Shown here piece by piece: positions 9,226 through 23,478 of a stretch of 24,967 bases of DNA (position 1 is the stretch's first letter; each line of letters begins with the position of its first letter). Made by a program: the position numbers and the translations under genes. Source of the DNA: a virus; IMG/VR virus record IMGVR_UViG_3300032285_002091, positions 1 to 24,967 of that record; one strand, written 5' to 3'. The notes under the pieces were generated by a model. It saw only the letters and a list, made by a program, of their open reading frames with translations, made no database searches and was not told the DNA's origin.

Positions 9226-9521
9226 TTTGCACCCTTGTTTCTTTTAGAAATAGCCGCTGCTTTCTTTTTCGCATCCGCTTTACTTGACGCACCCCACGCA
9301 TTCAAAGACAACAACAAACGAGTTGGTTCACCATTAGGTTTGCGTTCCGGCCCTGGCATGTTACCCATACGCGCAAGAAACGAAGCGCGGCGAGGATTGT
9401 CACCCGATTTGACTGGTGCTTTCAGGTTCATGCCTTGTGCGTGAGCGGATGCTCGACCTTTAGCGTTCAACCCGCCTTGAGGGTTTTTGCCTTCTTTGCG
9501 TTGCCATGCGGGGGTTGCCAT
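9222..9521 (-). CDS. Conserved small basic phage protein (DUF6321-like)
   Basis: This 99-residue basic protein has a strongly conserved look: WQRKEGKNPQGGLNAKGRAS, then KSGDNPRRASFLARMGNMPG, LLLSLNAWGASSKADAKKKA and a Lys-rich end. I recall this as a phage family of unknown function (DUF6321, stated from memory). The start is ATG 9521, which forms a TAATG junction with the LamG-like gene; the longer frame to 9557 would add 12 residues inside that gene and is rejected. Size, charge and position suggest a minor virion component. Function unknown. Confidence 0.75.
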   Translation of the reverse strand: MATPAWQRKEGKNPQGGLNAKGRASAHAQGMNLKAPVKSGDNPRRASFLARMGNMPGPERKPNGEPTRLLLSLNAWGASSKADAKKKAAAISKRNKGAK

Positions 9522-10870
9522 TACGCCACCGTGATTCCGTATTTTGCACCAAGCCACCGTTCAATGGATTGGCGTGTAGTGGTGTCATGCGCTGCGCTGT
9601 AAATCAACACAGCAAAAATGCGACCACTGAGTGTTCCTGCTAAACCCAAACCACCAACATAAATTTGGCTAGACGCAGAAGTCATCAGCGCTGTGCTTGA
9701 ACTGCTTGTCATTGTTCCATTAAAACCTGCTGCAATGTTTGACAACTGCAAACTTGTTCCCGAATAAATGCTTGTAAAAACATACGGTGTTCCCAGTGCG
9801 GAACTTGCAGTTGTTGCTGATGTTGGTGTTCCTGATGTTGCAACAACTGCCCCCTGCCATGTACTTGTTGTGCTTGTTGAGGTGGTAAGCAAACCACGCA
9901 AACCATTCTTACCAGCATCACGCAACGACCACAAATACTGCTCATTACCACTAACCGCAATACCATCCCTAGCGGCAACAACATACACAGAATAAGGAAC
10001 ACCATTTTGGTATGTTGTTCCCGAAGTTAAAGAATCATTGCTGCCATCAAATTGCACTGTTGGGAGGCTATTCAACAAAGTAACAGGGGGAACCCAAGTG
10101 GTGACTGTGCCATCAAACAAACCAAATTGGTCGGCGTAATGAATATCAGTTGTTGCCGTAATAGCATCAACACGCAAAGCAACAGTTGCATACGCTGCAT
10201 CAGAAGGCGCACTATCAGTAACCGTATACTGAGTCCACGCGCTAGTTGAATTATTGGTTTGAGTACCAGAACTGCTTGCTTTCACCGTTGATGCTGAACC
10301 ATTAGATTTCCACCAATAAATACGACACAAACAACCACGCACATTTAAACCAGAACGCGCTGAAACCATGCCAGTGTAAGTTTGACCAGCAACAACAGGG
10401 GTGCCTGTTGTCCCATCACCAAAAGTTCTCAAAGTGCCAACTTGTGAGTTACCTGAAGCCACCTGTGGTGTTATCAAAACAGAATAATTACCGTAAAGTG
10501 CTTGTGTTGTTGAAGCAGTTACGGTTGCATTTAAAGCATATTGCAAACTATTTGTAATAGTTCCATCTTCACAAGTAGCACCCTGATTGTAAGACAACAA
10601 GTTCCGTGAAGCATTACGGAACAAAGGTTGATACGCAGCAGTAGCTTGCGCTAGGTCACGACCATTGCCTGACAAATCTTTCCACGCAGACAACGCCGAA
10701 CCATCCGATGTTGGGTTAGCAGCAAACAAACCATTCACAGCAGAAGCGTCATACCACGCATACAAATTACTAGTCACAGGAGGTTGAGCCACACCACCAC
10801 TAAACCCGGCACGAAAACGGCGCTCACTACGCGCCCCACGACCAGCCCAACCAAACCTAGCGCGCGACAT
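9521..10870 (-). CDS. LamG/concanavalin-like surface protein with inserted CBM-like domain
   Basis: This 449-residue protein starts with a basic tail (residues 1-24). A concanavalin A/LamG-like fold is split in two. Residues 36-85 carry LYAWYDAS, AWKDLSGNGRDLAQ and YQPLFRN. The fold resumes at about 266 with LNSLPTVQFDGSNDSL and ends GRIFAVLIYSAAHD, SIERWLGAKYGI. In ordinary members these halves are nearly contiguous. Here about 175 residues (88-262) intervene and resemble a CBM4/9-type carbohydrate-binding domain: YALNATVTAS, YSVLITPQVASG, AGQTYTGMVSARSG, WTQYTVTDSAPSDAAYATVALRV and IHYADQFGLFDG. The protein probably binds host or environmental glycans from the particle surface. I prefer ATG 10870 (TGATG junction) to TTG 10873. 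Confidence 0.8.
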   Translation of the reverse strand: MSRARFGWAGRGARSERRFRAGFSGGVAQPPVTSNLYAWYDASAVNGLFAANPTSDGSALSAWKDLSGNGRDLAQATAAYQPLFRNASRNLLSYNQGATCEDGTITNSLQYALNATVTASTTQALYGNYSVLITPQVASGNSQVGTLRTFGDGTTGTPVVAGQTYTGMVSARSGLNVRGCLCRIYWWKSNGSASTVKASSSGTQTNNSTSAWTQYTVTDSAPSDAAYATVALRVDAITATTDIHYADQFGLFDGTVTTWVPPVTLLNSLPTVQFDGSNDSLTSGTTYQNGVPYSVYVVAARDGIAVSGNEQYLWSLRDAGKNGLRGLLTTSTSTTSTWQGAVVATSGTPTSATTASSALGTPYVFTSIYSGTSLQLSNIAAGFNGTMTSSSSTALMTSASSQIYVGGLGLAGTLSGRIFAVLIYSAAHDTTTRQSIERWLGAKYGITVA

Positions 10871-11136
10871 CAAACACCCTGAGTAAGAGTATTCACAGTC
10901 AAAGAACTAGAAGCAACCACACCAAACAAACCCTCCGCAACAGTCAACTGCAAAGTAAACGACTGACCAGGGCCAAGCGCATACCCATACGAAGAAGTCG
11001 TCACACCCGACCCACCCAAATACACAGTCACCGTCGAATCAGGATTCTGCACAACCACAGTCTGATCAACAAGCGCAGTGGACGACAAACGAGTAGCAGT
11101 CGTACCAACAGAAACCCTAGAATGACCAACAGCCAC
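10870..11136 (-). CDS. Small beta-rich virion protein
   Basis: This 88-residue protein has the pattern RVSVGTTATRLSS, VVVQNPDSTVTVYLGGSGVT, SYGYALGPGQSFTLQL and GLFGVVASSSLTVNTL. I recognise this compact beta-sandwich type as a common small protein beside capsid genes in actinophages, perhaps a decoration or minor tail protein. The start is GTG 11136, without a clear Shine-Dalgarno sequence, downstream of a 61-nt gap that holds a hairpin. Its stop overlaps the LamG-like start as TGATG, so the two may be made in step. The role is inferred. Confidence 0.65.
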   Translation of the reverse strand: MAVGHSRVSVGTTATRLSSTALVDQTVVVQNPDSTVTVYLGGSGVTTSSYGYALGPGQSFTLQLTVAEGLFGVVASSSLTVNTLTQGV

Positions 11137-11544: not shown

Positions 11545-11723
11545 TGTAACCCCTTATAGGTTGGAATTTCGCGGGCCTGCTGGGTAGCAGACTCACCTGC
11601 CTCATGCTTAGCCATAGCAGTTGCGTTTGCGTAACGCTCACCTGTTTGAACCTCAAACACTGCGCTGTGCGTCGATGACAACGGATCAAGTTTGTTGCCA
11701 GCAAGTTTGTGGAACTTACTCAT
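11541..11723 (-). CDS. Miniprotein with HKLAGxK motif (60 aa)
   Basis: This 60-residue protein begins MSKFHKLAGNKLDPLSSTHS and continues AVFEVQTGERYANATAMAKHEAGESATQQAREIPTYKGLQ. It shares its N-terminal motif with the 46-aa miniprotein downstream. The start ATG 11723 overlaps the previous stop as TGATG; a GTG at 11726 directly before it would also give a GTGA overlap, so the start is uncertain by one codon. No known domain is recognised. It lies in the run of small proteins after the capsid gene. Confidence 0.65.
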   Translation of the reverse strand: MSKFHKLAGNKLDPLSSTHSAVFEVQTGERYANATAMAKHEAGESATQQAREIPTYKGLQ

Positions 11724-12229
11724 CACATACCAGTTTTCTTGGCGCGCGCACGAGCAGCCATGTTCTTCACGTTTTCCTTGGCATACGCGCTGTAATCGGA
11801 ACGGGTGGCGTTAGGGTTCTTCTTCAAATAATTTTGATACCCGCGTTCACCCATGGTTTTAATTTGGTCACGCAAGTATGAGCGGTAAGTGTCAGCGTTA
11901 GCACCAGTGTTTTTTGCGGCGTAACGCGCGTAACCTGCACCTGAAGTGAGTTTTGTGTCAGCAGCAGACTTACGCGCTGCGGTAGCCATTGTGTTAGCGG
12001 CAGTGCGGTCAGCGGCAGCCTTTTTACGGGCAACAGCCTTCTCCTGATTCGCAGCATTCCTAGCAGCTGTGCGGGCAGCAGCAGCCTTCACACGGTCACC
12101 CGCAGCCTTCACACGGTCACCCGAAGCTTTGATGCTAGCGGTAACTTGCGCAGACTTACCAGTGTTGCGCAAAGAAGACGCACCCTTAATGGACTTAGTA
12201 GTGGAACCACTCTTTTTCATAGCAGCCAT
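11723..12229 (-). CDS. Ala/Lys-rich basic protein after the capsid gene
   Basis: This 168-residue protein is dominated by Ala, Lys, Arg and Thr. Residues 35-92 resemble histone-H1-like tails (KASGDRVKAAGDRVKAAAARTA, AVARKKAAADRTAANTM), and the C-terminal half (about 112-168) is a more ordinary helical domain with YRSYLRDQIKTMGERGYQNYL and DYSAYAKENVKN. GDRVKAA is repeated exactly at the DNA level. It could be an internal head or DNA-condensing protein, given its position after the capsid gene; that is inference. ATG 12229 is spaced 6 nt from AAAGG; the adjacent ATG 12232 is also possible. Confidence 0.65.
   Translation of the reverse strand: MAAMKKSGSTTKSIKGASSLRNTGKSAQVTASIKASGDRVKAAGDRVKAAAARTAARNAANQEKAVARKKAAADRTAANTMATAARKSAADTKLTSGAGYARYAAKNTGANADTYRSYLRDQIKTMGERGYQNYLKKNPNATRSDYSAYAKENVKNMAARARAKKTGM
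12081..12122. repeat. Perfect 21-bp tandem duplication
   Basis: The 21-bp unit from 12081 to 12101 is repeated exactly at 12102-12122. Each copy encodes GDRVKAA on the minus strand, in frame, within the Ala/Lys-rich protein. Exact identity including silent positions points to recent slippage or duplication. Confidence 0.9.
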
Positions 12230-12256
12230 CATTGACCTTTCATCGTAAGGATGAGA

Positions 12257-12286: not shown

Positions 12287-13600
12287 TCAGGAAGCGTTCG
12301 AACCGATGGACGAAACAGACTCAACACGACGCAACGCGGTCTGACGGAACACCGAGTAACCAACAAGGTGCTTCCAACCCATACCCTCGAAACGGCGCAA
12401 AGCGTCAGTCACAGGCACATCAACCATCACAGGCTGCTCACCGTAACCACCACCAACAGAGAAACCCTTAGCAAGAGCCTGACGGCCCATGAACAAGGTT
12501 CCGTACACATCGTTCGTTCCACCAAGAATGACCTTCACAGCAGCCGAACCTGACACCGTGGTGTCAGTCAAAGTGTTACCAGGAAGCAGGTCAAAGATGA
12601 GCGTGGAACCAGTGGTACCAGCCTTAGCAACAAAGTCACCGTTCAGTGCCGAGTTACCAGTTGCCGCGTTACCTGCAACGGAGAAGAAACCACCAGAAAC
12701 AATACCGTGTGATGCCGCTGTGGTTGCCGTCACCGTTGTGGTGTTACCAGAAGTGGCAACAGTGATGGATGAGATGGATGTTGCGGCAGTACCGGCAGTC
12801 GTACCCGATGCACCAGCGTTAGCGAACAACGGGGCGCGTGGGGTTTCAATGAACTGCGCACCACCAAACACACCAATGACACCGTTCCAAATACCCGACG
12901 GGTCAGAGTATGCGTGAGGGTCAGCCCAACCGTTCGTACCCGTGGTTTGACGCAAATCATACGAAACATCCGGGTGAATGTAAGACTTGTACAAACCGTT
13001 GAAGGTAGGCACATTTGCACCACGCAACGCAGCAACCTGACGCAACACCTGCGCTGCGCTCAAAGTGTTAGCGGTACCAAGGTTCGTACGAACCTGCGAA
13101 CCAGTCGCATCCACATACGGTTGAAAAGTAGTGTTCTTAGAAACACCAAGAGTGTTGAACGCATAGTTCTGACCAATCTGCGCAACATTTCGGGCAATAC
13201 CATCAACAGAAATACCGGCGTTAAAACCAAGCACATTTGCAATGATGGGGTTAACCTGCATGAACGCAACAGACCGCAAACGAGCCGAAGTCTGAATGGC
13301 GTTACCGTACTCAAGAAGGCTCACAGTAATCTGCGAATCATCCAAAGTAGTTGGGGTAATATCCACAGTTTCAGACAACGCTGTCGTAGCGGCAGCAATG
13401 TCATTGAAAATGGTGAACTTTAGGGTTGCACCAGGGTTAGTTAGGTCAGTTGCCTTAACCTCAGCAACCGAGTCGTAGTACAACTCTGGACGCAAAGAAA
13501 AATACGCCAACTTCTCATACGCCGTCTGTACAAGATCAAAGTTACCAGTCGTTGTGTTCTGAATAGGCGAATAAGTACCAAGTTGAGATTGTGTAGCCAT
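12287..13600 (-). CDS. Major capsid protein, N4-gp56-like
   Basis: This 437-residue protein is the shell-forming capsid subunit. It matches what I know of the N4-gp56 family (HK97 fold): YFSLRPELYYDSVAEVKATD (about residues 33-52), LKFTIFNDIAAATTALSE, SQITVSLLEYGNAI (89-102), YIHPDVSYDLR (207-217) and FIETPRAPLF (250-259). The C-terminal end has GWKHLVGYSVFRQTALRRVES. Between residues about 261 and 363 a beta-rich domain is inserted, with TVTATTAASHGIVSGGFFSV and LNGDFVAKAG, resembling surface beta modules of tail proteins. The start ATG 13600 has AAAGGG at good distance and follows the scaffold gene by 25 nt, the usual gene order. Confidence 0.92.
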   Translation of the reverse strand: MATQSQLGTYSPIQNTTTGNFDLVQTAYEKLAYFSLRPELYYDSVAEVKATDLTNPGATLKFTIFNDIAAATTALSETVDITPTTLDDSQITVSLLEYGNAIQTSARLRSVAFMQVNPIIANVLGFNAGISVDGIARNVAQIGQNYAFNTLGVSKNTTFQPYVDATGSQVRTNLGTANTLSAAQVLRQVAALRGANVPTFNGLYKSYIHPDVSYDLRQTTGTNGWADPHAYSDPSGIWNGVIGVFGGAQFIETPRAPLFANAGASGTTAGTAATSISSITVATSGNTTTVTATTAASHGIVSGGFFSVAGNAATGNSALNGDFVAKAGTTGSTLIFDLLPGNTLTDTTVSGSAAVKVILGGTNDVYGTLFMGRQALAKGFSVGGGYGEQPVMVDVPVTDALRRFEGMGWKHLVGYSVFRQTALRRVESVSSIGSNAS

Positions 13601-13625: not shown

Positions 13626-14120
13626 TTAGATGGCTTTCCAATGACCAGGGGCCGAATAATCCAACGACACACCAGCCTTCTGAAGTATCGCAAAAACAGC
13701 ATCAGGGGTGTCAGCTGCGTTGATTTCGGCTGCGTAATCCACCGGGTCATTCACCTGACCGCCAGCAGCAGCGCTGCCAATGCGGTTAATAGCAGCGAAC
13801 TCATCAGCCGGGATTTGTGTCTTGGGTTGATCCAAAACACCGTACTCCTGTGCCGCTGACCTCACCGCATCAAGTGATGCTTCACCGTCATACGCCTTAG
13901 CGAACAACTTGCCTGTAGGGGAATCCAAATCAATTCCTGCCTTCATGAAAGCCAGTTCGCGTTTAGCCGACTCCGCTTCAGCTTTCACCCTGTCAGCATC
14001 CTTAGCGCGCTTCTCCAAATCCCGCACCCACTTACGGTCACGGTTTGGGGTTTCCTGCTGTTGCTGTTGGGGTTCATCCTGGGTATCGAAATCGTCATCT
14101 TCAAAAAAGTTTTCGGACAT
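13626..14120 (-). CDS. Capsid scaffolding protein
   Basis: This 164-residue protein starts with an acidic tail (SENFFEDDDFDTQDEP), has a Gln-rich linker, and then a charged coiled-coil-like helix (KWVRDLEKRAKDADRVKAEAESAKRE, split here only by eye, about residues 30-56). The phrase FMKAGIDLDSPTGKLFAKAY and the ending AGVSLDYSAPGHWKAI are ones I recognise from actinophage scaffolding proteins. It would guide capsid assembly and then leave the head. It sits directly upstream of the capsid gene, as expected. I chose ATG 14120 (MSENFFED) because family members begin this way; the open frame to 14159 adds an unlikely leader. Confidence 0.85.
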   Translation of the reverse strand: MSENFFEDDDFDTQDEPQQQQQETPNRDRKWVRDLEKRAKDADRVKAEAESAKRELAFMKAGIDLDSPTGKLFAKAYDGEASLDAVRSAAQEYGVLDQPKTQIPADEFAAINRIGSAAAGGQVNDPVDYAAEINAADTPDAVFAILQKAGVSLDYSAPGHWKAI

Positions 14121-14363
14121 TGTTCTCGTTTCCAATCTCTCGCCACATCCGAGAAACATGGCGGTGGGGTAGAAGTTTCGGTTGTTTGCAGCGAGGCTGC
14201 TGGAATGAATACCGCGCTACCACGCGGGTCACTGCCACATCGGACTTTTGTTGGTCTAAATCACACCGTCCGGTAGGTGACTACACATCTGCGGAACCAA
14301 CAACCCCATGATAGCACAAGACCCCCACAGAAGGAGGCGGTCTGTGGGGGCTTGCTAAGGGTA
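14121..14363 (-). promoter_or_regulatory. Structured intergenic leader upstream of scaffold and capsid genes
   Basis: This 243-bp gap is the largest in the minus-strand gene block. Read on the minus strand, it holds a strong hairpin (14322-14350), then CCGCG/CGCGG around a 6-nt loop (14212-14227), then GCAGC/GCTGC around a 3-nt loop (14188-14200), before the scaffold start. No convincing -35/-10 promoter was found, but this is where a capsid-operon promoter or processing site would be expected. Confidence 0.45.
14322..14350 (-). terminator. Strong hairpin after the 767-aa internal protein gene
   Basis: CCCCCACAG and CTGTGGGGG form a perfect 9-bp GC-rich stem with an 11-nt loop, 13 nt after the stop codon of the upstream gene. 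On the minus strand it is followed by TCTTGTGCTATC, a weak T-rich tail. It is probably a transcription terminator or attenuator separating internal-protein genes from scaffold and capsid genes. Confidence 0.5.
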
Positions 14364-16667
14364 TCAGTTGTTTGCTTTACCCAACCCAATAACACCCTTA
14401 TCGGTTGCTGCAATGGAACCGCCAGACTCATACTTCTTGCGCTTCACCGTCATACCTGTTTCAAGTGCTTTCTGTGCCTCATAATCAGGGTTACCCTTGT
14501 TGCCTTGCGCACCCGCAATAAGCACATTAGCAACCTGCTGTTGGCTCACTACAGCCTTCTCGCCGGCCACAGTTCCCTGAGCCAAACCAAGGTTTTCATT
14601 TGCAAGTGTTTTCAAATACGATACATTCACATTAGCCGGAACCGCATTCTGCGCTGCCTGCGCAATAACATCACCAGAAATACCCGCCGTTAACAACGCA
14701 GCCTCATTGAACTGCCTCACAAGATCATTAGTTCTCTTAGCAGTAACCTCACGGGCCTTATTTGGGTCAAGGAAAAACGCTGTCAAATCACCCTCACCAA
14801 TACCAAACTGGTTCTGCAACTGGTCACGCAAATCAGCATTCGATTGCAGCGCTGCCTGCTGCGCCATATCAATACGGGTTGTGTACTCATCAGGAGACAC
14901 ATCATTCGTAATAAGAGTAGTGAAATCGGAAGGATTATCGTAAAACCCCACAGGCAAACCAGCTTGCTTAGCCAAATCAGAATACTGCTTCTCCAAAGCC
15001 AACTGGTCACCCTCAGAAATGGGTTGCATCATTGTTGTTTGACCCGCTTGACCGGCAGCCTGAATAGCAGCATCACGGCTCAACTTCGCGGCGAAACGAT
15101 TCTTATACGACGGTTGCTCACGCAAATCCTGCATCACAAGAAAATCATCAAGTTTCCCTGTGGCATCCTTGAACTTAGGATCAGTTTGATACTTGGACAC
15201 TGATGCAGCCAAATCCTGCAAACCATACTGCGCAAACATTGTTCGAAGAATTGAAAGCGAATCAGGCAAATCCATTGCAGTAACCACAGTAGTGTCCTTT
15301 GTTGTGTCTTTCGGTTCAGTTAAAGATTGCAAAACATCCCACGCTATTTTGCTTATCCAACTTTTACCATTCCAGTACTGATTATTCCAAATGTCCCCAA
15401 CCTTGGGATCCTTAGGTGCGTCACTTGGGTTTGTTGTGTTGCTGTTACCCGAATTAATATCCGGCCCTGGTTGCCCATCAACACCCGTAACAGGCGCACC
15501 AGTTGTGTTGTTTGTTGTGCCACCACCTGGGTTCCATTCACCAGATTTAACAAGTTTAGTTTTAAGGGTTGCTTGGCTAGTTGTGATGCTTTGAATGTTT
15601 TTGGGGTCATACTTTTTAACCCAAGCCATGTACTCCGCACCAGCATCCCATTTCTGTTGACTGTTGGCTGGTGCGTTAGCCCACACATCATGCAACCGCT
15701 TACCTTCAACTTTATTGGCAGCCGCATCGTAAGTTGTTTTGTCAACCCATTTTTTTCCATCATAAAACTTGTCACCAGCAGAAGAACCCCACTTGTCACC
15801 CATTTTGGGATTAGCAGGTGGAACAACTTTGTCGTACTCGCTTTGAACCAACCATTTTTTAGATTTAGCGTCGTAAAGTTTTTCACCATCAGCAGAGTTC
15901 CACTTGTCACCCTGCGCTGGACTGGTGGGGGGAACAAGTTTGTTGTATTCCTCTTCCGTTACAAACCCAGTACCTTTGTGCCAAATTTTGTTTGATTCAG
16001 GATCAACTTGGCCCTCTACAAATGCATTTACAGAAGTTGACCCAGTTGAGTTAGTTGTATTAGATGAACTATTTGTAGTAGCCGTTTGGTTTGCTTTATC
16101 AATTCTTGCTTGCGCTTCTTTGACCTTAGAAACATAATTGTTGTAATCAGTGCGGTTGACATTCTTAAAATAATCAGCTGCCGCTTGACCCCATTTGACT
16201 TTATCCGCATCAGTTTTAGCATTAGTGAATTTATTTTTGTAATAGTTAGGTTCAGTTTCCCAACTTTTACCATTCCAAATTTGTTTTCCAGTAGAAGAAT
16301 TCCACTTAGTTCCATCAACAGGATCCTTAGGTGGAACAACCTTGTCATATTCGTTTTGAATCAACCACTTTTTAGACTTGGCATCCCAAAGTTTTTCACC
16401 ATCAGAAGAACCCCATTTGTCACCCTGCGCTGGGTTAACAGGAGGAACAACTTTGTTATACGCATCCTCAAGCAGCCAAGACTTAGATTTAGCATCCCAA
16501 AGTTTTTTGCCATCAGAAGAATTCCACAAGTCGCCTTGCGCTGGTTTAGCAGGGGGAACAAGTTTGTTGTACTCTTCTTCAGTTATAAACCCAACACCAT
16601 TATGCCAAATTTTGTTCGGATTCTCAGGATCAACCTGACCCTCTTTGGGCATTTGAACAAGAGCCAT
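14364..16667 (-). CDS. Internal virion protein with expanded GDxW repeats
   Basis: This 767-residue protein has two parts. The N-terminal 450 residues contain six modules of the type P-x-x-P-x-x-GD-x-W-x(2-4)-DG-x-KLWDAKSK-x-W, at about residues 39-75, 76-112, 113-145, 247-283, 284-313 and 419-444. A Ser/Thr/Asn linker (195-213) separates two copies of a larger block that begins EGQVDPE (9-76 and 218-284). The C-terminal part (about 465-767) has PISEGDQLALEKQYSDLAKQ, AGLPVGFYDNPSDF, ITNDVSPDEYTTRI, GIGEGDLTAFFLDP and an ending GVIGLGKANN. I recognise these from actinophage internal virion proteins, likely ejected with DNA. It starts at ATG 16667 in a TAATG junction with the next internal protein gene. 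Confidence 0.75.
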   Translation of the reverse strand: MALVQMPKEGQVDPENPNKIWHNGVGFITEEEYNKLVPPAKPAQGDLWNSSDGKKLWDAKSKSWLLEDAYNKVVPPVNPAQGDKWGSSDGEKLWDAKSKKWLIQNEYDKVVPPKDPVDGTKWNSSTGKQIWNGKSWETEPNYYKNKFTNAKTDADKVKWGQAAADYFKNVNRTDYNNYVSKVKEAQARIDKANQTATTNSSSNTTNSTGSTSVNAFVEGQVDPESNKIWHKGTGFVTEEEYNKLVPPTSPAQGDKWNSADGEKLYDAKSKKWLVQSEYDKVVPPANPKMGDKWGSSAGDKFYDGKKWVDKTTYDAAANKVEGKRLHDVWANAPANSQQKWDAGAEYMAWVKKYDPKNIQSITTSQATLKTKLVKSGEWNPGGGTTNNTTGAPVTGVDGQPGPDINSGNSNTTNPSDAPKDPKVGDIWNNQYWNGKSWISKIAWDVLQSLTEPKDTTKDTTVVTAMDLPDSLSILRTMFAQYGLQDLAASVSKYQTDPKFKDATGKLDDFLVMQDLREQPSYKNRFAAKLSRDAAIQAAGQAGQTTMMQPISEGDQLALEKQYSDLAKQAGLPVGFYDNPSDFTTLITNDVSPDEYTTRIDMAQQAALQSNADLRDQLQNQFGIGEGDLTAFFLDPNKAREVTAKRTNDLVRQFNEAALLTAGISGDVIAQAAQNAVPANVNVSYLKTLANENLGLAQGTVAGEKAVVSQQQVANVLIAGAQGNKGNPDYEAQKALETGMTVKRKKYESGGSIAATDKGVIGLGKANN
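15336..16553. repeat. Degenerate GDxW module repeats
   Basis: Six DNA segments encode related modules: 16443-16553, 16332-16442, 16233-16331, 15819-15929, 15729-15818 and 15336-15413. The first two are directly adjacent and each 111 bp long. The larger duplicated block spans 16440-16643 and 15816-16013. Copies differ by silent and coding changes, so the expansion is not brand new. Confidence 0.8.
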
Positions 16668-17881
16668 TACTTCACCAAACCAAACTTAGACAAAATAGAA
16701 TTAGCCAAACCATAAGCCTCAGTTTTAGCCATAGAAGTTTTAGACCACGACGGATCCTGACGCAACTTATTAGAAAACTCCGTACCAGTCAACAAACGCT
16801 GCTGACCCTGGTCATCCGTAGTAGCCAAAGCAGCAATATCATGCACATTCAAAGTGTTTGCATTCTTATCCATCATTTGTGCATAAGTGTCCGTGTACTC
16901 CTTCATCAACTGTCGAACAGTCACACCATTATCAATAGCCTGCGCAACATTCGCCCCATACTTAGCTTTAGCCATGCCCTGAACATGCTGGTCAAAGTTT
17001 TCCTGCGTCAAAGTGCCATCCATCAAATAACGCACCGAGTTCATCACAAGAGAATCATCAGGTTTAATACCATAATCTTCAAGGGTTCGTTTCACTGTGT
17101 CCTGATACTGGCCTGCTGTGCCTTGAACATCAGCGGCTTTGCTTTCCTTAGGAACCAACCCTGACATGTAACCCGCTGACCATGCCTTCAAATTGAACCC
17201 ACCCAAACTGGTTGTGTCCGTTCCACCACCAGCAAGTTTTGTGGTTTTTGTGATTTTAGGTGCGGCAGCAGCAGCCTTAATTAATGCTTTCTTGTACGCC
17301 GCTGTTTCCTTATCCGATGGGGCGCGACCAAACGCAGCCTGAAACGCACCCTTAGCAATAAGGGTTGCCTGCTGGTCAGTGAAACCAGTGCGGTTGATTT
17401 GTGTTTGCACATCATTACTTGCCGTAGTGAACCTGGCAATGACTTGCTGGTTGTGGGCAAAATTGTTGTACGGGTCAACCTTTTTGCCTTTACCACCGTT
17501 GTAAACATTCGCTGCATCGATGAAAATTCGGCGCATCACAGTGGTCATGGCTTGCGGGTCGTTGAAAGTTTTATCTTTACCGAAAACCCCTGCGTTGAGA
17601 AGGGTGGTTGCTATTGCCCAGTTCTTAGCATGATTGGGGGAGTTGGCATCAAAAATTGATCTAGTGAAACTTTCTGCCGCGTCCTTCACAGTGGATGTCA
17701 TTGGTTTGCCGTTTCTGTCACCAAACCACACAATTTTCATGTCATCTTGTTGCTGCTGAAATGTGATACCAGATGAACTGAAACCTTGAACTTCCCACGC
17801 TGTTCCATTCCAACTTTGACCATTCCAAGTGTCCCCGATGCGCGGATTAGATGGTGGGGTGGAACCAGTGTAATCAGTCAT
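16667..17881 (-). CDS. Internal virion protein (404 aa)
   Basis: This 404-residue protein begins with one GDxW module (residues 9-31, PPSNPRIGDTWNGQSWNGTAW) of the same type that is expanded in the next gene. The rest is mainly helical, with SPNHAKNWAIATTLLNAGVFG, GFTDQQATLIAKGAFQAAFGR and an Ala/Lys-rich stretch (about 205-222). A C-terminal half follows with YGIKPDDSLVMNSVRYLMDG, TVRQLMKEYTDTYAQMMDKN and AYGLANSILSKFGLVK. It matches my memory of actinophage internal proteins located between the giant protein and the second internal protein. No lysozyme or transglycosylase motif is seen. The start ATG 17881 overlaps the giant gene's stop as TGATG, so the three internal proteins are coupled. 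Likely role: assembly in the head and ejection with DNA. Confidence 0.65.
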   Translation of the reverse strand: MTDYTGSTPPSNPRIGDTWNGQSWNGTAWEVQGFSSSGITFQQQQDDMKIVWFGDRNGKPMTSTVKDAAESFTRSIFDANSPNHAKNWAIATTLLNAGVFGKDKTFNDPQAMTTVMRRIFIDAANVYNGGKGKKVDPYNNFAHNQQVIARFTTASNDVQTQINRTGFTDQQATLIAKGAFQAAFGRAPSDKETAAYKKALIKAAAAAPKITKTTKLAGGGTDTTSLGGFNLKAWSAGYMSGLVPKESKAADVQGTAGQYQDTVKRTLEDYGIKPDDSLVMNSVRYLMDGTLTQENFDQHVQGMAKAKYGANVAQAIDNGVTVRQLMKEYTDTYAQMMDKNANTLNVHDIAALATTDDQGQQRLLTGTEFSNKLRQDPSWSKTSMAKTEAYGLANSILSKFGLVK

Positions 17882-20800
17882 CAGTTTTCTCCTTCAGGAA
17901 CATAAGTGAACTGGTCAGAATCAAGCCAACGGTCATAAAACTGTGCAAACATTGGATTCAATTTCAAATGCTTCACATAAGCGTCACGCTCAACACGCAA
18001 CGACTCCGCAATCTTAGAATCAATACGCGGTGAGTTAGCATGAATCTCAGCTAAAGTTGGTGGGCGGCCATATGTTGCTGTCAACATGTCACGGGTGTAA
18101 TTTTCCAACTGTTTTTGAATATTGTCACGCATACTGAAATACGCTCGAACAAACTTCATATGCTCATAATCCTTACCATTTCTGACAACGGCAGGGTTGA
18201 ACGCAACCTCACGGGCAGCCTGAACATTCTTAATCCAAGCTTTCGTCAACACATTGTTGTAAGCGTCATACCACTCAGGGTTAGATTCCTTCAACTGTTG
18301 AATGTAGGTGCGCTGCCTGTCAGCCAACTCGGGGGCCTGCTGAATGGAAGTCAAATTGTTTTGCGCAAGGAACCCGTTAATATTTTCTTTCATTTTGTGG
18401 TAATCCAACCAGCCCTTAGCAACCTTCGCTAACTTCAAAGCCTCCAAAGGGTTCTTGCGCGCTGTGAAACCTGAACCACGCTTCCACAAGTTAGAAGCAA
18501 CATCAAACTTGCCATTAGTTTCAGTGTCCGTCACCATGGACACATACTCCTCACCAAGACCAGCAACCCTATCCACAAGATCCTTGTGGCGTTTAGCCAA
18601 AAATACGGACTTAGTGGTGGAGTCCATGCCCGATGGGTTTGATGTAAGTGAAGCGTTCAAATACCACATTTGTGGATTTTCTTCCACAAACTTAGCAAAA
18701 CCCTCACGGTTGCCAAACTTGTTTTGGTAATCACGCAACTGTGTTATGTATGGTTGCAACGCTGTTTCGTACCGTGGAACAATAGGAAGCACAAGGTTCG
18801 CTGCTGTTCGAACAAACATGAACATGGTTGCCTCATGTTCCGATTCCTTATAAATTTGGTTCAACGATTTCACTGGTTCATCACCAAGGTTTTGGCGGCG
18901 CAACTTGTTCATAGAAATCGTCAACACCGCTTCAGCGAAACGGTACGAGTCATCACCCTGCGCTGCGGCAGTCAAGTTACGCATCCAAGCCGGACTCAAC
19001 GGGTTAGTGATGGCAGCCAACCAATTGTTTTCACGCGGCAACTGGTCATCAGGAACGAACTTAGACAAAATTTCCCGAGCAGGAAGATGTTGCCCAGTTA
19101 AACGGTACAAGTCCTGGTCAATTTGTGGGTTGCTGCGAATCCACCAACCAACAGGGATTTGCACCACAGGCCCAATACCAGTGGTTTGAATGAGTTGAGT
19201 TGTCAAGTCATCGCCACGCCAGCCGGCTGCAAGCAAATTGATACCAGCTTTAGGCAAAGCCCAAGTGCTGTAAGTTTTCAAAGCCTCAGCCATAGCAGGT
19301 GACACATGGCGAATGGCATTCTCAATGGGTTTGAATACTCTGAAAGTGAGCATTGTTTCACCAGTGTTTGGGTCTTTTTCAACAGTTCCAAGTTTGTCAA
19401 GGTTACGCCATGCTTGTTCAAGTCTGCCAATTTGTTCAGGGTTTTCGTACAACAACCGTGACCATGTGAGCAACGAATTGTTTTGCGCCTGAATGAACGG
19501 GGACAACCAGCTCACTTTTTGACCAACAGCACTTTTACGCATAATGGTGTACAAAGTTTTACGCACATCATTCAACGCTATTTGGCGCGCTGTGGACACC
19601 ATTGTGTCCATCATTTCCTGCGTAATCGTCACATTCTGTGCCATGAGTCGTTCACTTTGTTCAGCCAGTGAACGGTTGTACGACAGTTGCGCAAACGGGT
19701 GACGAACCAGTGTGTCCTCAGGTAAAGACCCCAAATACTTGAAAGCCTTCTGAACAATAGTGTTGTAACCCGCTTTGAAAGTGGTGTAATAACCCCTACC
19801 GTTTTTGATTTCACGCAAAGTTTGAATCTGCTGACCGTGAACAGGAACAGTGTTCTCATTGTTGAACAAATCCCTACGCAACTGGCTACCAAGGATACGG
19901 TTCTTATCCGTAGCCATCTGTCGAATGATTGCATCCTCACCCGCAGCGTGGTCAAAGATTTGTTGCATCCGTTCAGACGCAACCGCTTGCGGTGTCATTG
20001 TTGGGTCAAACTCGCCAATGCTTTTCACACGATCAATGTACGAACGACCCTCAGCTTTGGTTAGCCACTTTTCGCCCGCTGTGATAGCCGCATCAATAGC
20101 ATCATCCGCATTAGGGTGCTTTGCGTATTCGCGTAACAAAACCTCACCAAGGCTGTCGTTACGCAACTGGTGAATGGCCCGTTCCAAAGATGACCAGTAC
20201 GCTTGGTGACCTGTTATTTCTTCAGGGGTGCGACCAGTGTTGAAACGCGGTGGGTCGTGGCGTTCCCAGCGGTCACCAACGGCACGAATTGAATCAAGAG
20301 ATATCACAGATTCAGTGTTGGAATCCAAAATGTTACGCGAATCCGCTGATACTTCACCACGCGCAGCCCTACCCGCTGTGTCAGAGTAAATGCCAGGGAA
20401 GTCGTAATGCCCAATAGGGACATCTTCCACACCACCATAAGCACGGTTCTCTTTGCTGCCAAGTTTTGTCATTTGGGTGTTCCAGTCACGGAACTTTTGC
20501 ATAGTGAAATCAAGGCGCGCTTGGTTAGCGTCAATGATGTCACCGGCAATCCACAAAGAATCATCTTCCGCATCAGCAAGACGCTGCTTAGCGATTTTCA
20601 GTTTGTTTCTGTGATCCCTCAAAGACTCCGTGAGGTCAGCCTCAACTGGCATTCCGGCTTTCTTCTTGGAATCAATAATGTGTTTGATACCAGTAATGGC
20701 ATCTTCAGCGTCAGCAATGTCAGCCAAAGCTTCATCTTTAGTTGCTTGTTGCAACGATTCATGCCACATGCGTTGCTGTGCAAGTTCTTCCTGCTGCATG

Positions 20801-23478
20801 ACCATTGTGTCTTCAAGGTGCGCTGACCACAACTTTGAACGACCCCACACAAACGGTGGAACCTTAGGAATATCAATCCCGTTTTGTGCAAACTCTTTCC
20901 ACTGCTGCAACGAAAAAAGCCGTTCATCAAAACGCGACCAGCGGTTCAAAGCAAAATTTTTGGCACCCTTAGCAACATACGGTGCCATGAACACCATTTG
21001 CCCACCGAAATGGGTTGCTGTGCGTAACCATGCTTCCATAACATTTCGTTGCGTGTACCCAAGTCGAAGCAGAACCGCTGGCCGCCACACCCTGTCCATT
21101 GCGGTGTACAAGGCTTCCGCTGCTTTCGTTGCGGCAACCTTAGGTGGCATGTATTTCAAAGTGTCAATGACACCAAGCAGGTTGTCGGAGAATGCTTTCT
21201 CACCTAACGCTTGGGTGAGTTCACCGATGTGAAGCATTGGGTGTGAAAACTCAAGTTGCGAATCAAGGACGGGTGCGCGCAAAATTTTGCCATCTTCGCT
21301 AATGCCGTAACCTTTTTTGCCCGGCAGTTTTGATTCCTTGAACGCCCGGATTTGTGCTGCCCGTTTGCTTTGGTACGCATCCCAAATTTCATCCGCATAC
21401 ACCCTGACACTGCCGTCAGCGTTGCGTAAAATTTTCCCATCAGCACCACGCAAAGCCCTAGCCCACTGTGGGTTGAAACTTTTAGCGGTAGCAATCACTG
21501 CTTCCCGTTCATGGTTCAACAAAATTTGGCTACGCAAATCACCAATAGACATTTCTCTGCGCAACCTATTCTGGCCCGCTGCAATGAACTCATTCAAAAA
21601 CTGTTCACGCTGCTGCGGGGTGAACTCCCGCACCGATTGCAGCCACGCTTTGTGTTCCAAAATGCCTTCAGATTCGTTCATACCATGCGTGGCAACCCAA
21701 CCATGCGGCAAAGTTTTACCAAACTCGGAACCAATCCACTGCAAATGCACCACAGGTCGAGCCAAATGGTGCAAACGGTACTCCTTGGAAACCCAACCAA
21801 GTTGCGCTGTTGCAGGTGTGTAACCCATTTCAAGGGCAGCAGATGAACGCGCACGATTAGCGCGAAACTCCTCAATGTTCCCATACCTGGCAAACCCGCG
21901 ACGCAACTGGTTACGCATCAACGGCGTGTACTTACCTTCACTCATCACCGCCTCGGACAAAAACTTGTCACGAATCAGCAAATCATCAAGTTCCTTACCA
22001 ATGCGGGCCTGCATTTGCTTATTCTCGGCAACATAATGGGCGATATCCCCACCATGAATTTTCATTGACTCCAGCACGGTTTGCAAATAACTCAAATCGC
22101 CTTGCGACCGGCGAATCATTTCATGCACAACAGGTGCCTGGTCAAACAAACGGGCATACGAATTCACATCACCATACATGGCGTTCACAGCATCCATCAC
22201 CAGTGCTTTATCACCACCCTTAGCGGCGGCAGCGATGATGCTTGAAGCGTTACCAGCGTTCGTCCCAAACCGTTTAATGATGTAATGGTTCATAATCTGC
22301 GACTCGGACATGTTGAAATTGACAACTTGATTTACGAACTCCGCTGGCCCAGCAGCAGCAGTCGGAACACCCTTAGCTTTGACTTCTTCAACTTTCAAAC
22401 CGCTTTTGTAAAAATCTTTTTGCAGTTTTCCGCGCTCAGTTTCAAGTGCTTTGCGTTGCAAATTCAAATCATCTAAAGTTTTTTGCAACGCTTCCGCATC
22501 AAGGCCAGCGAACAAATCACCACTAGCTTTGATTTCATTGATTTGTGCTTCAACAGCGCGCATTTGGTTTGATGTTTCAGCAATGCCCATGCGGTTTGTG
22601 TGCAACGCATCCTGTGCATTGAGGTGAACTGTTTCCGCTTCAACTGTTGCTTGACGCATTTGGTCAAAAAGTGTTTTCTGTTCAGCATCCAAAAAGATGC
22701 CACGGGTTGCATCAATTTTTGGTGCCAATGTTGCAAGGCGCGCTGTTTTCAACACTTTCCCACCAACAACTGTTGGGTCAGCAAAAATGTATCCAGCCAA
22801 ATCAAGCGCACCAGTTGACCATTTCAACAACGGGTTTGTTTTATATTTTTCCCGCTCAAAAGGGTCAAAAATGTTTTCAACATGCGCCACATGCGGAACA
22901 ATGAGTTGTCGAACACCCGGGATTTGGGACATGAAAAACTCGGTTGCTTGACCGGGTGTGATGGGGTTGAAAGAGGAACGGTCAGCTTGATCCCATGCGC
23001 GTTGCCACACATCCCCTGGGTTCAGGAAGTTGCCGTCCTGCAACGCCCCAAGTTCTGCTGCCCCGGTTGTGATTGTGGTGGCGAGGGCTTTGCTCCATGG
23101 TTTCCAAATGTGTTCATCGTAAGCGGTTGCCGCTGCAAGTATTGGCCCGGCTGCTTTGTTGAGTGCTTTTCCAACAAGTTGCGCACCCTGCTGAACAGGG
23201 ATAGCGGTCATCTGATTGCTTTGGTATTGGATGGGTGTTGCTGAGGAAATTGCTTGACCAGTGAAATATGCGGCATATGGTGCAGCAAAATTGGTGACAC
23301 TGTTGACAACACCACCGGTAAACGATTTGAAATGGTCAGCCAAACTGCCATGCGCAGGTTGCGCCCAACCTTTGTTTGCTACACCACCACGACCCTGCCC
23401 TGCTTGTGGTTGAAACTTAGGTGGCGGTGGGTTTTTGTGTTCGTCACGGCTGTGACCAATGCGGGTGTTATCAGCCAC
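17881..23478 (-). CDS. Giant internal virion (ejection) protein, 1865 aa
   Basis: This is the largest gene in the window. The N-terminus is Gly/Pro/Gln-rich, followed by Ala-rich helices with ALDLAGYIFADPTVVGGKVLK (about residues 224-244), a type seen in actinophage internal proteins. A long coiled coil runs from about 265 to 365 and a second from about 885 to 970. LRLGYTQRNVMEAWLR (about 803-818) is another phrase I recall from this group. No RNA polymerase, peptidase or muramidase motif was found by eye. In podoviruses, proteins of this size and position form the internal core and enter the cell to help DNA pass the envelope. The start is GTG 23478, fixed by an in-frame TGA just upstream; it overlaps the 48-aa gene by 8 nt. 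Confidence 0.75.
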   Translation of the reverse strand: MADNTRIGHSRDEHKNPPPPKFQPQAGQGRGGVANKGWAQPAHGSLADHFKSFTGGVVNSVTNFAAPYAAYFTGQAISSATPIQYQSNQMTAIPVQQGAQLVGKALNKAAGPILAAATAYDEHIWKPWSKALATTITTGAAELGALQDGNFLNPGDVWQRAWDQADRSSFNPITPGQATEFFMSQIPGVRQLIVPHVAHVENIFDPFEREKYKTNPLLKWSTGALDLAGYIFADPTVVGGKVLKTARLATLAPKIDATRGIFLDAEQKTLFDQMRQATVEAETVHLNAQDALHTNRMGIAETSNQMRAVEAQINEIKASGDLFAGLDAEALQKTLDDLNLQRKALETERGKLQKDFYKSGLKVEEVKAKGVPTAAAGPAEFVNQVVNFNMSESQIMNHYIIKRFGTNAGNASSIIAAAAKGGDKALVMDAVNAMYGDVNSYARLFDQAPVVHEMIRRSQGDLSYLQTVLESMKIHGGDIAHYVAENKQMQARIGKELDDLLIRDKFLSEAVMSEGKYTPLMRNQLRRGFARYGNIEEFRANRARSSAALEMGYTPATAQLGWVSKEYRLHHLARPVVHLQWIGSEFGKTLPHGWVATHGMNESEGILEHKAWLQSVREFTPQQREQFLNEFIAAGQNRLRREMSIGDLRSQILLNHEREAVIATAKSFNPQWARALRGADGKILRNADGSVRVYADEIWDAYQSKRAAQIRAFKESKLPGKKGYGISEDGKILRAPVLDSQLEFSHPMLHIGELTQALGEKAFSDNLLGVIDTLKYMPPKVAATKAAEALYTAMDRVWRPAVLLRLGYTQRNVMEAWLRTATHFGGQMVFMAPYVAKGAKNFALNRWSRFDERLFSLQQWKEFAQNGIDIPKVPPFVWGRSKLWSAHLEDTMVMQQEELAQQRMWHESLQQATKDEALADIADAEDAITGIKHIIDSKKKAGMPVEADLTESLRDHRNKLKIAKQRLADAEDDSLWIAGDIIDANQARLDFTMQKFRDWNTQMTKLGSKENRAYGGVEDVPIGHYDFPGIYSDTAGRAARGEVSADSRNILDSNTESVISLDSIRAVGDRWERHDPPRFNTGRTPEEITGHQAYWSSLERAIHQLRNDSLGEVLLREYAKHPNADDAIDAAITAGEKWLTKAEGRSYIDRVKSIGEFDPTMTPQAVASERMQQIFDHAAGEDAIIRQMATDKNRILGSQLRRDLFNNENTVPVHGQQIQTLREIKNGRGYYTTFKAGYNTIVQKAFKYLGSLPEDTLVRHPFAQLSYNRSLAEQSERLMAQNVTITQEMMDTMVSTARQIALNDVRKTLYTIMRKSAVGQKVSWLSPFIQAQNNSLLTWSRLLYENPEQIGRLEQAWRNLDKLGTVEKDPNTGETMLTFRVFKPIENAIRHVSPAMAEALKTYSTWALPKAGINLLAAGWRGDDLTTQLIQTTGIGPVVQIPVGWWIRSNPQIDQDLYRLTGQHLPAREILSKFVPDDQLPRENNWLAAITNPLSPAWMRNLTAAAQGDDSYRFAEAVLTISMNKLRRQNLGDEPVKSLNQIYKESEHEATMFMFVRTAANLVLPIVPRYETALQPYITQLRDYQNKFGNREGFAKFVEENPQMWYLNASLTSNPSGMDSTTKSVFLAKRHKDLVDRVAGLGEEYVSMVTDTETNGKFDVASNLWKRGSGFTARKNPLEALKLAKVAKGWLDYHKMKENINGFLAQNNLTSIQQAPELADRQRTYIQQLKESNPEWYDAYNNVLTKAWIKNVQAAREVAFNPAVVRNGKDYEHMKFVRAYFSMRDNIQKQLENYTRDMLTATYGRPPTLAEIHANSPRIDSKIAESLRVERDAYVKHLKLNPMFAQFYDRWLDSDQFTYVPEGEN

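Follow-up and report, generated by a model that had tools for sequence, protein, structure and literature searches.

A putative I-domain-like beta-barrel inserted in an N4-gp56-family major capsid protein

The window, i.e., the whole stretch of 24,967 nucleotides analysed here (positions 1 to 24,967 of IMG/VR virus record IMGVR_UViG_3300032285_002091), carries on its minus strand an open reading frame at 12287-13600 that encodes a protein of 437 amino acids. The protein scores 97.5 bits against TIGR04387 N4-gp56 (cut-off 60) and 84.2 bits against PF13252 (cut-off 23), and matches phrog_1357 with an E-value of 7e-58. By these profile matches, it belongs to the N4-gp56 / Phage_capsid_3 family of major capsid proteins (MCPs); the TIGR04387 score above the cut-off bears out the assignment made in an earlier note on this DNA. 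A predicted model of the MCP aligns in VIA-align with the solved N4 capsid structure 9e99 with a Z of 14.7 and an rmsd of 4.2 over 186 residues, the model core being of low confidence, and points to an HK97 fold like that of the N4 capsid. In Pfam the MCP matches PF13252 only, and the P22 coat protein matches PF11651 (P22_CoatProtein); the PF11651 match typical of P22-type coats is not seen in the Pfam search of the window MCP.

The gene just upstream of the MCP gene (13626-14159, minus strand) is kept next to it in relatives and encodes a 177-aa protein of phrog_7813, a family of unknown function; its position and charged make-up suggest a candidate scaffold protein. In general, the gene order around the MCP is conserved in relatives. 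Directly after the MCP gene lies that of a 169-aa Ala/Lys/Arg-rich protein (11723-12232, minus strand) with a 21-base repeat at 12081-12127 (GDRVKAA units). Between the MCP gene and a huge gene at 17881-23478, a 767-aa protein of phrog_8424, also of unknown function, is encoded on the minus strand at 14364-16667 and bears at 16372-16572 a repeat of the type PANPAQGDKWGSSDGEKLWDAKSKKWL with a DNA period of 111 bases.

The MCP contains an extra segment, A256-N363 (12512-12835, minus strand), delimited by alignments and a length survey. The segment is located between the motifs ETPR and DVYGT, where relatives have a loop of 12-21 amino acids. The ETPR-DVYGT stretch comprises 108 residues in the window MCP and in the MCP of one viral contig, L001, vs. 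17-19 in typical close relatives. Insert-less relatives that are 57-63% identical to the window MCP show at this place a 17-19 aa loop such as APLFANAGDGLNGTGTI; in viral contigs, relatives at this level of identity are shorter, mostly 316-326 aa, and most of the difference falls, by the alignment, between ETPR and DVYGT. Among 210 distinct MCPs, gathered by similarity so that the counts do not reflect frequencies in nature, the stretch is 12-21 aa long in 128 and 89-108 aa long in 82, with no intermediate length. Since the length is two-state, the insert is no part of the core fold of the family, and since relatives without it are numerous, the family in general can do without it. These data agree with the earlier note, which placed an inserted domain at 12512-12820 (residues 261-363), within five residues of the alignment boundaries: the segment is missing from most relatives found, and the family alignment gives no sign that it forms part of the core in typical members. 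The motif quoted there is present in substance, the real letters being TVTATTAASHGIVSGGFFSVAG...ALNGDFV. Used as a query against viral contigs, the window insert detected a single relative, that of L001.

A second insertion of 16 residues (residues 153-168; 13097-13144, minus strand), with the sequence VSKNTTFQPYVDATGS, turned up in the same alignment. It is common to the window and L001 and does not occur in the aligned insert-less relatives, save for 4 residues in L019. No part of the MCP changes faster: the window and L001 are 63% identical here, although few sites are involved.

AlphaFold models predict that about residues 272-360 of the insert (12521-12787, minus strand) form a six-stranded beta-barrel. 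The whole-MCP model is poor over much of the core (mean pLDDT 49.5), whereas the insert, with pLDDT mostly 65-84, is among the better parts; its strands span residues 274-284, 287-294, 305-309, 321-324, 333-337, and 354-358. Folded alone, the insert again yields six strands (mean pLDDT 70.7, pTM 0.68). The structural neighbours are barrel domains, among them the E1-FCCH domain, which matches the insert of the whole model with a Z of 9.5 and an rmsd of 2.1 over 79 residues, and the insert-alone model with a Z of 8.2. The insert-alone model also resembles the barrels of phage endosialidases, namely that of phi92 (4hiz, Z 8.1) and 3gvj (Z 6.9), and further fold neighbours are FAD-reductase and riboflavin-synthase barrels. 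The earlier proposal of a beta domain is thereby supported at the level of the models. The resemblance to the FCCH barrel is one of fold only: the E1_FCCH-like barrels (Uba1/Uba6, FAD reductases, riboflavin synthase, phage endosialidase) share the predicted fold with Z of about 7-9.5, but differ from the insert in having other functions and no sequence-family match to it, a Pfam search at E ≤ 10 giving no match, E1_FCCH included. In a Foldseek search with the whole model, Sf6 and P22 coat proteins occupy ranks 11, 13, 17, and 18. No P22-type chain is among the 50 structural matches listed for the insert-alone model.

The position of the insert on the capsid can be approached by means of solved structures. 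Profile alignment with the solved N4 capsid protein puts the insertion point at N4 residues ~299-328, and cryo-EM places the A-domain loop 300-328 of N4 gp56 on the outer capsid surface (PMC11768535). The insert therefore likely projects from each capsomer, as the earlier note had it; by analogy with the N4 loop, every MCP subunit is likely to bear it on its outer side. The I-domain of phage P22 comprises residues 222-345 and lies within the A-domain as well (PMC9965877). In a forced alignment from the A-domain to the C-terminus, with low local confidence outside the barrel, the P22 entry junction VLRSPKLP falls opposite METPRAPFF of the N4-gp56-family MCPs. The best reading is that the insert occupies the A-domain position at which P22-type coat proteins carry their I-domain. 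The idea of a hot spot is not new, since a review of 2015 pointed out that P22 and herpesviruses share an insertion site (PMC5701804); the new element is the repeated use of the hot spot within the N4-gp56 family.

Four types of insert, W, B, C, and D, are found at this one site. Type W consists of the window and L001, whose 108-aa inserts are 71% identical to each other. Type B occurs in 47 freshwater-type viral loci and is ~97 aa long (TLTTSAAHGLAVGDTLTISGATA...). Type C belongs to the ct2KA10 group of viral contigs (L275-L354), all examined members of which have an insert at this site (89-92 aa, 71 distinct sequences). Type D is represented by 10 of the 15 MCPs examined from Clostridia genomes, with an insert of ~80-110 aa, different in sequence and in the same place; the remaining 5 have a short loop. 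Clostridia contigs with N4-gp56-type MCPs include L402, L404, L407, L408, L410, L412-L416, and L418, and the reading frames in L404 and L413 are ~497 aa long. Profile comparison of the hhalign type reveals no sequence kinship of group D to groups W, B, and C or to the P22 I-domain; the Clostridia inserts are an independent use of the hot spot. By the same comparison, group C shows no kinship to W and a marginal one to B, with 24% identity and a score above those of 100 shuffles.

A tree of W, B, C, and insert-less sequences, calculated without the insert columns, contains three changes of insert state, of which well supported branches force at least two, gains and losses being not distinguishable. 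Insert-less sequences share one supported group with types W and B, for which a single gain followed by losses is therefore possible. Replacement of a downstream decoration gene by the insert was considered as well. The distance from the MCP to the next conserved gene is 375-535 bp in group B and 313-345 bp in 22 of the 51 insert-less loci; because of the latter gaps, there is no simple replacement.

A profile of 26 W and B inserts (A7) was searched against 177,635 PDB sequences. Its top two matches are the I-domains of CUS-3 (6mnt, E 0.02) and P22 (2m5s, E 0.027), followed by the P22 coat protein 2xyy at residues 252-309 (E 0.23) and the MCP 8gn5 at 249-306 (E 0.31). Each of these E-values is weak by itself; taken as profile evidence, the fact that the top four are all coat proteins matched at one place, which in P22 and CUS-3 is the I-domain, is not weak. 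In hhalign, the group B inserts match the P22-family I-domain with a probability of 95% and an E-value of 1.6e-8, the score being 49.8, whereas none of 100 column shuffles scored above 18.4. They also match phrog_283, the P22 coat family. The P22-family profile was built from ten phage records, a scan of viral contigs with P22 having given near-copies of P22 only. Profile comparison thus argues strongly that the group B inserts are homologous to the P22-type I-domain. The matches of the window insert itself are weaker: the window/L001 insert aligns with the P22 I-domain at a probability of 8.6% (score 21.9, maximum 17.8 in 100 shuffles) and with group B at 35% (score 26.2 vs. a maximum of 20.4 in 100 shuffles, 34% identity). 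The window insert alone finds phrog_283 only among the PHROGs (E 3.9), and a tblastn search of phages with it gave nothing useful. Its kinship to P22 is for this reason deduced through group B.

Related modules also appear in tails. A major tail protein, that of Microbacterium phage A3Wally, carries a module detected by A7 with an E-value of 3e-7. The PHROGs matched by the group B inserts comprise virion families and tail-fibre families, the latter with E-values down to 3e-5. The earlier suggestion of a module of the kind found in tail proteins was therefore right in kind. At the level of sequence, the window insert appears weakly akin to both the P22 I-domain and phage tail modules. It is quite possible, though less likely than not, that the P22 I-domain, the N4-gp56-family inserts, and many tail-fibre and tail-tube modules make up one mobile family of phage beta-barrels, captured repeatedly and independently at a single hot spot of the HK97 A-domain. 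In favour of this reading, P22 and group B resemble each other in sequence more closely in their inserted modules than in the capsid cores around them; the insert-less cores of the P22-type and N4-gp56-family proteins show no significant profile similarity.

Among the known extra domains of capsid proteins, the nearest precedent in function is the P22-type I-domain (P22, CUS-3, Sf6); the earlier note mentions neither this domain nor the beta inserts that other lineages carry at the site. Like the window insert by prediction, it is rich in beta structure, measures ~100-125 aa, and interrupts the A-domain of an HK97-fold coat protein. The P22-type domain is an antiparallel Greek-key beta-barrel of six strands, and six strands are predicted for the window insert; the entry junctions co-align, albeit in the forced alignment of low confidence. 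The differences are that the window insert lacks a D-loop and has a shorter S-loop region, that its host protein belongs to N4-gp56/PF13252 rather than to PF11651, and that its own similarity is weak. In P22 the D-loop (residues 239-254) makes inter-capsomer contacts across two-fold axes; the model of the window MCP has at this point a 2-residue turn between strands 274-284 and 287-294. Since the D-loop is missing, the coat family differs, and direct homology is weak (8.6%), the window insert is best described as a domain that probably works and sits like a P22 I-domain without being classed as one. In the crAss001 MCP, the I-domain is likewise a beta-barrel inserted in an HK97-fold protein and resembles that of P22 (DALI Z 6.1), but it is in the E-loop, not in the A-domain, and assembles with an auxiliary protein (PMC10172136). 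Loop 300-328 of N4 gp56 is in the same place of the same MCP family; it is, however, a loop of ~28 residues rather than a domain and helps to orient a separate Ig-like decoration protein. The BIG2-like domain of the phi29 MCP, an extra beta-domain of an HK97-fold protein at a position described as similar to that of the P22 I-domain (PMC5701804), differs in its Ig-like fold. Within the open-licence literature, no published I-domain in an N4-gp56-family MCP was found, an earlier description elsewhere being possible.

As for the function, P22-type I-domains are characterised by their support of coat folding, assembly, and size control. Roles in folding, assembly, and stability have been proposed for the domain of P22 (PMC5701804). 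It is fairly probable that the insert is an autonomous six-stranded I-domain-like barrel on the capsid exterior, at the position of the P22 I-domain, that most likely stabilises the shell or the subunit. By extension from P22, the outward barrel would help the subunit to fold and stabilise the shell, and it might act as a built-in decoration, packed on its own subunit and on adjacent ones. Because the D-loop is absent and the S-loop region is short, contacts, if any, would be made differently from those in P22.

The comparison of the window with L001 yields a dN/dS of about 0.27 for the insert vs. 0.13 for the N-terminal and 0.065 for the C-terminal core, a two- to fourfold higher rate of change in the insert. 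Group B pairs with a core identity of 0.52, which were misaligned, are not part of this rate comparison. The insert is under purifying selection, yet evolves faster than the core, as expected for an exposed, less constrained domain. The same rate could be read in favour of an adhesion module borrowed from tail proteins, in which the barrels on each capsomer weakly bind host or environmental glycans. Such a role, put forward in the earlier note, seems unlikely. It would be in line with the probable exposure of the site, with the matches of group B to tail-fibre PHROGs and of A7 to a major tail protein, and with the likeness of the insert-alone model to phage endosialidase barrels (4hiz, 3gvj), which is the only lead. 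However, among the fold neighbours, enzymes without such a role score as well or better, a domain that is exposed and less constrained would evolve faster in any case, and no conserved aromatic or acidic patch emerged. Pfam and PHROGs give no carbohydrate-binding family match for the insert, which leaves the claim of glycan adhesion unsupported.

Alternatively, the insert could serve not as the stabiliser itself but as a docking platform for a separate decoration protein, which we consider rather unlikely. There are precedents: the N4 loop at this site contributes to the orientation of DIII, a domain of decoration protein gp17 (PMC11768535), the crAss001 I-domain has its auxiliary partner (PMC10172136), and several small uncharacterised genes lie downstream of the window MCP. 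Yet no decoration protein has been identified, and the downstream gene content does not simply track the insert. Very improbable is a near-neutral passenger tolerated at a permissive surface loop, which would suit the absence of the insert from most relatives, its faster evolution, and the unrelated sequences at the same site in other lineages, but is opposed by the constraint that a dN/dS of ~0.27 implies and by the retention of the insert in at least 47 loci of group B and in at least 71 distinct sequences of group C.

Stabilisation by an I-domain-like barrel, our preferred reading, lends itself to experiment, since capsids that are 57-63% identical, with and without the barrel, constitute a natural experiment on folding, size, and stability. 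The outward-facing loop of this common capsid family is one that nature has repeatedly used for the insertion of whole domains. The open-licence literature searched offers no explanation of the origin of the P22 I-domain; homologous modules at the equivalent site of another capsid family and in tail proteins would provide a testable case for the modular swapping of capsid surface domains.

Other genes of the window deserve mention. A VanY-type D-Ala-D-Ala carboxypeptidase (PF02557), probably a lysin, is encoded at 1354-1857 on the minus strand. On the plus strand, opposite to that of the VanY gene, 226-1170 encodes a C5 cytosine DNA methylase (PF00145), of which the C-terminal part is present. 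The 450-aa protein encoded at 9521-10873 (minus strand), which starts YAWYDASAVNG..., matches phrog_10356, a virion structural protein, with an E-value of 3e-14 and has no Pfam match. By eye, it looks like a LamG/lectin-type virion protein, and glycan binding is more plausible for it than for the capsid insert.
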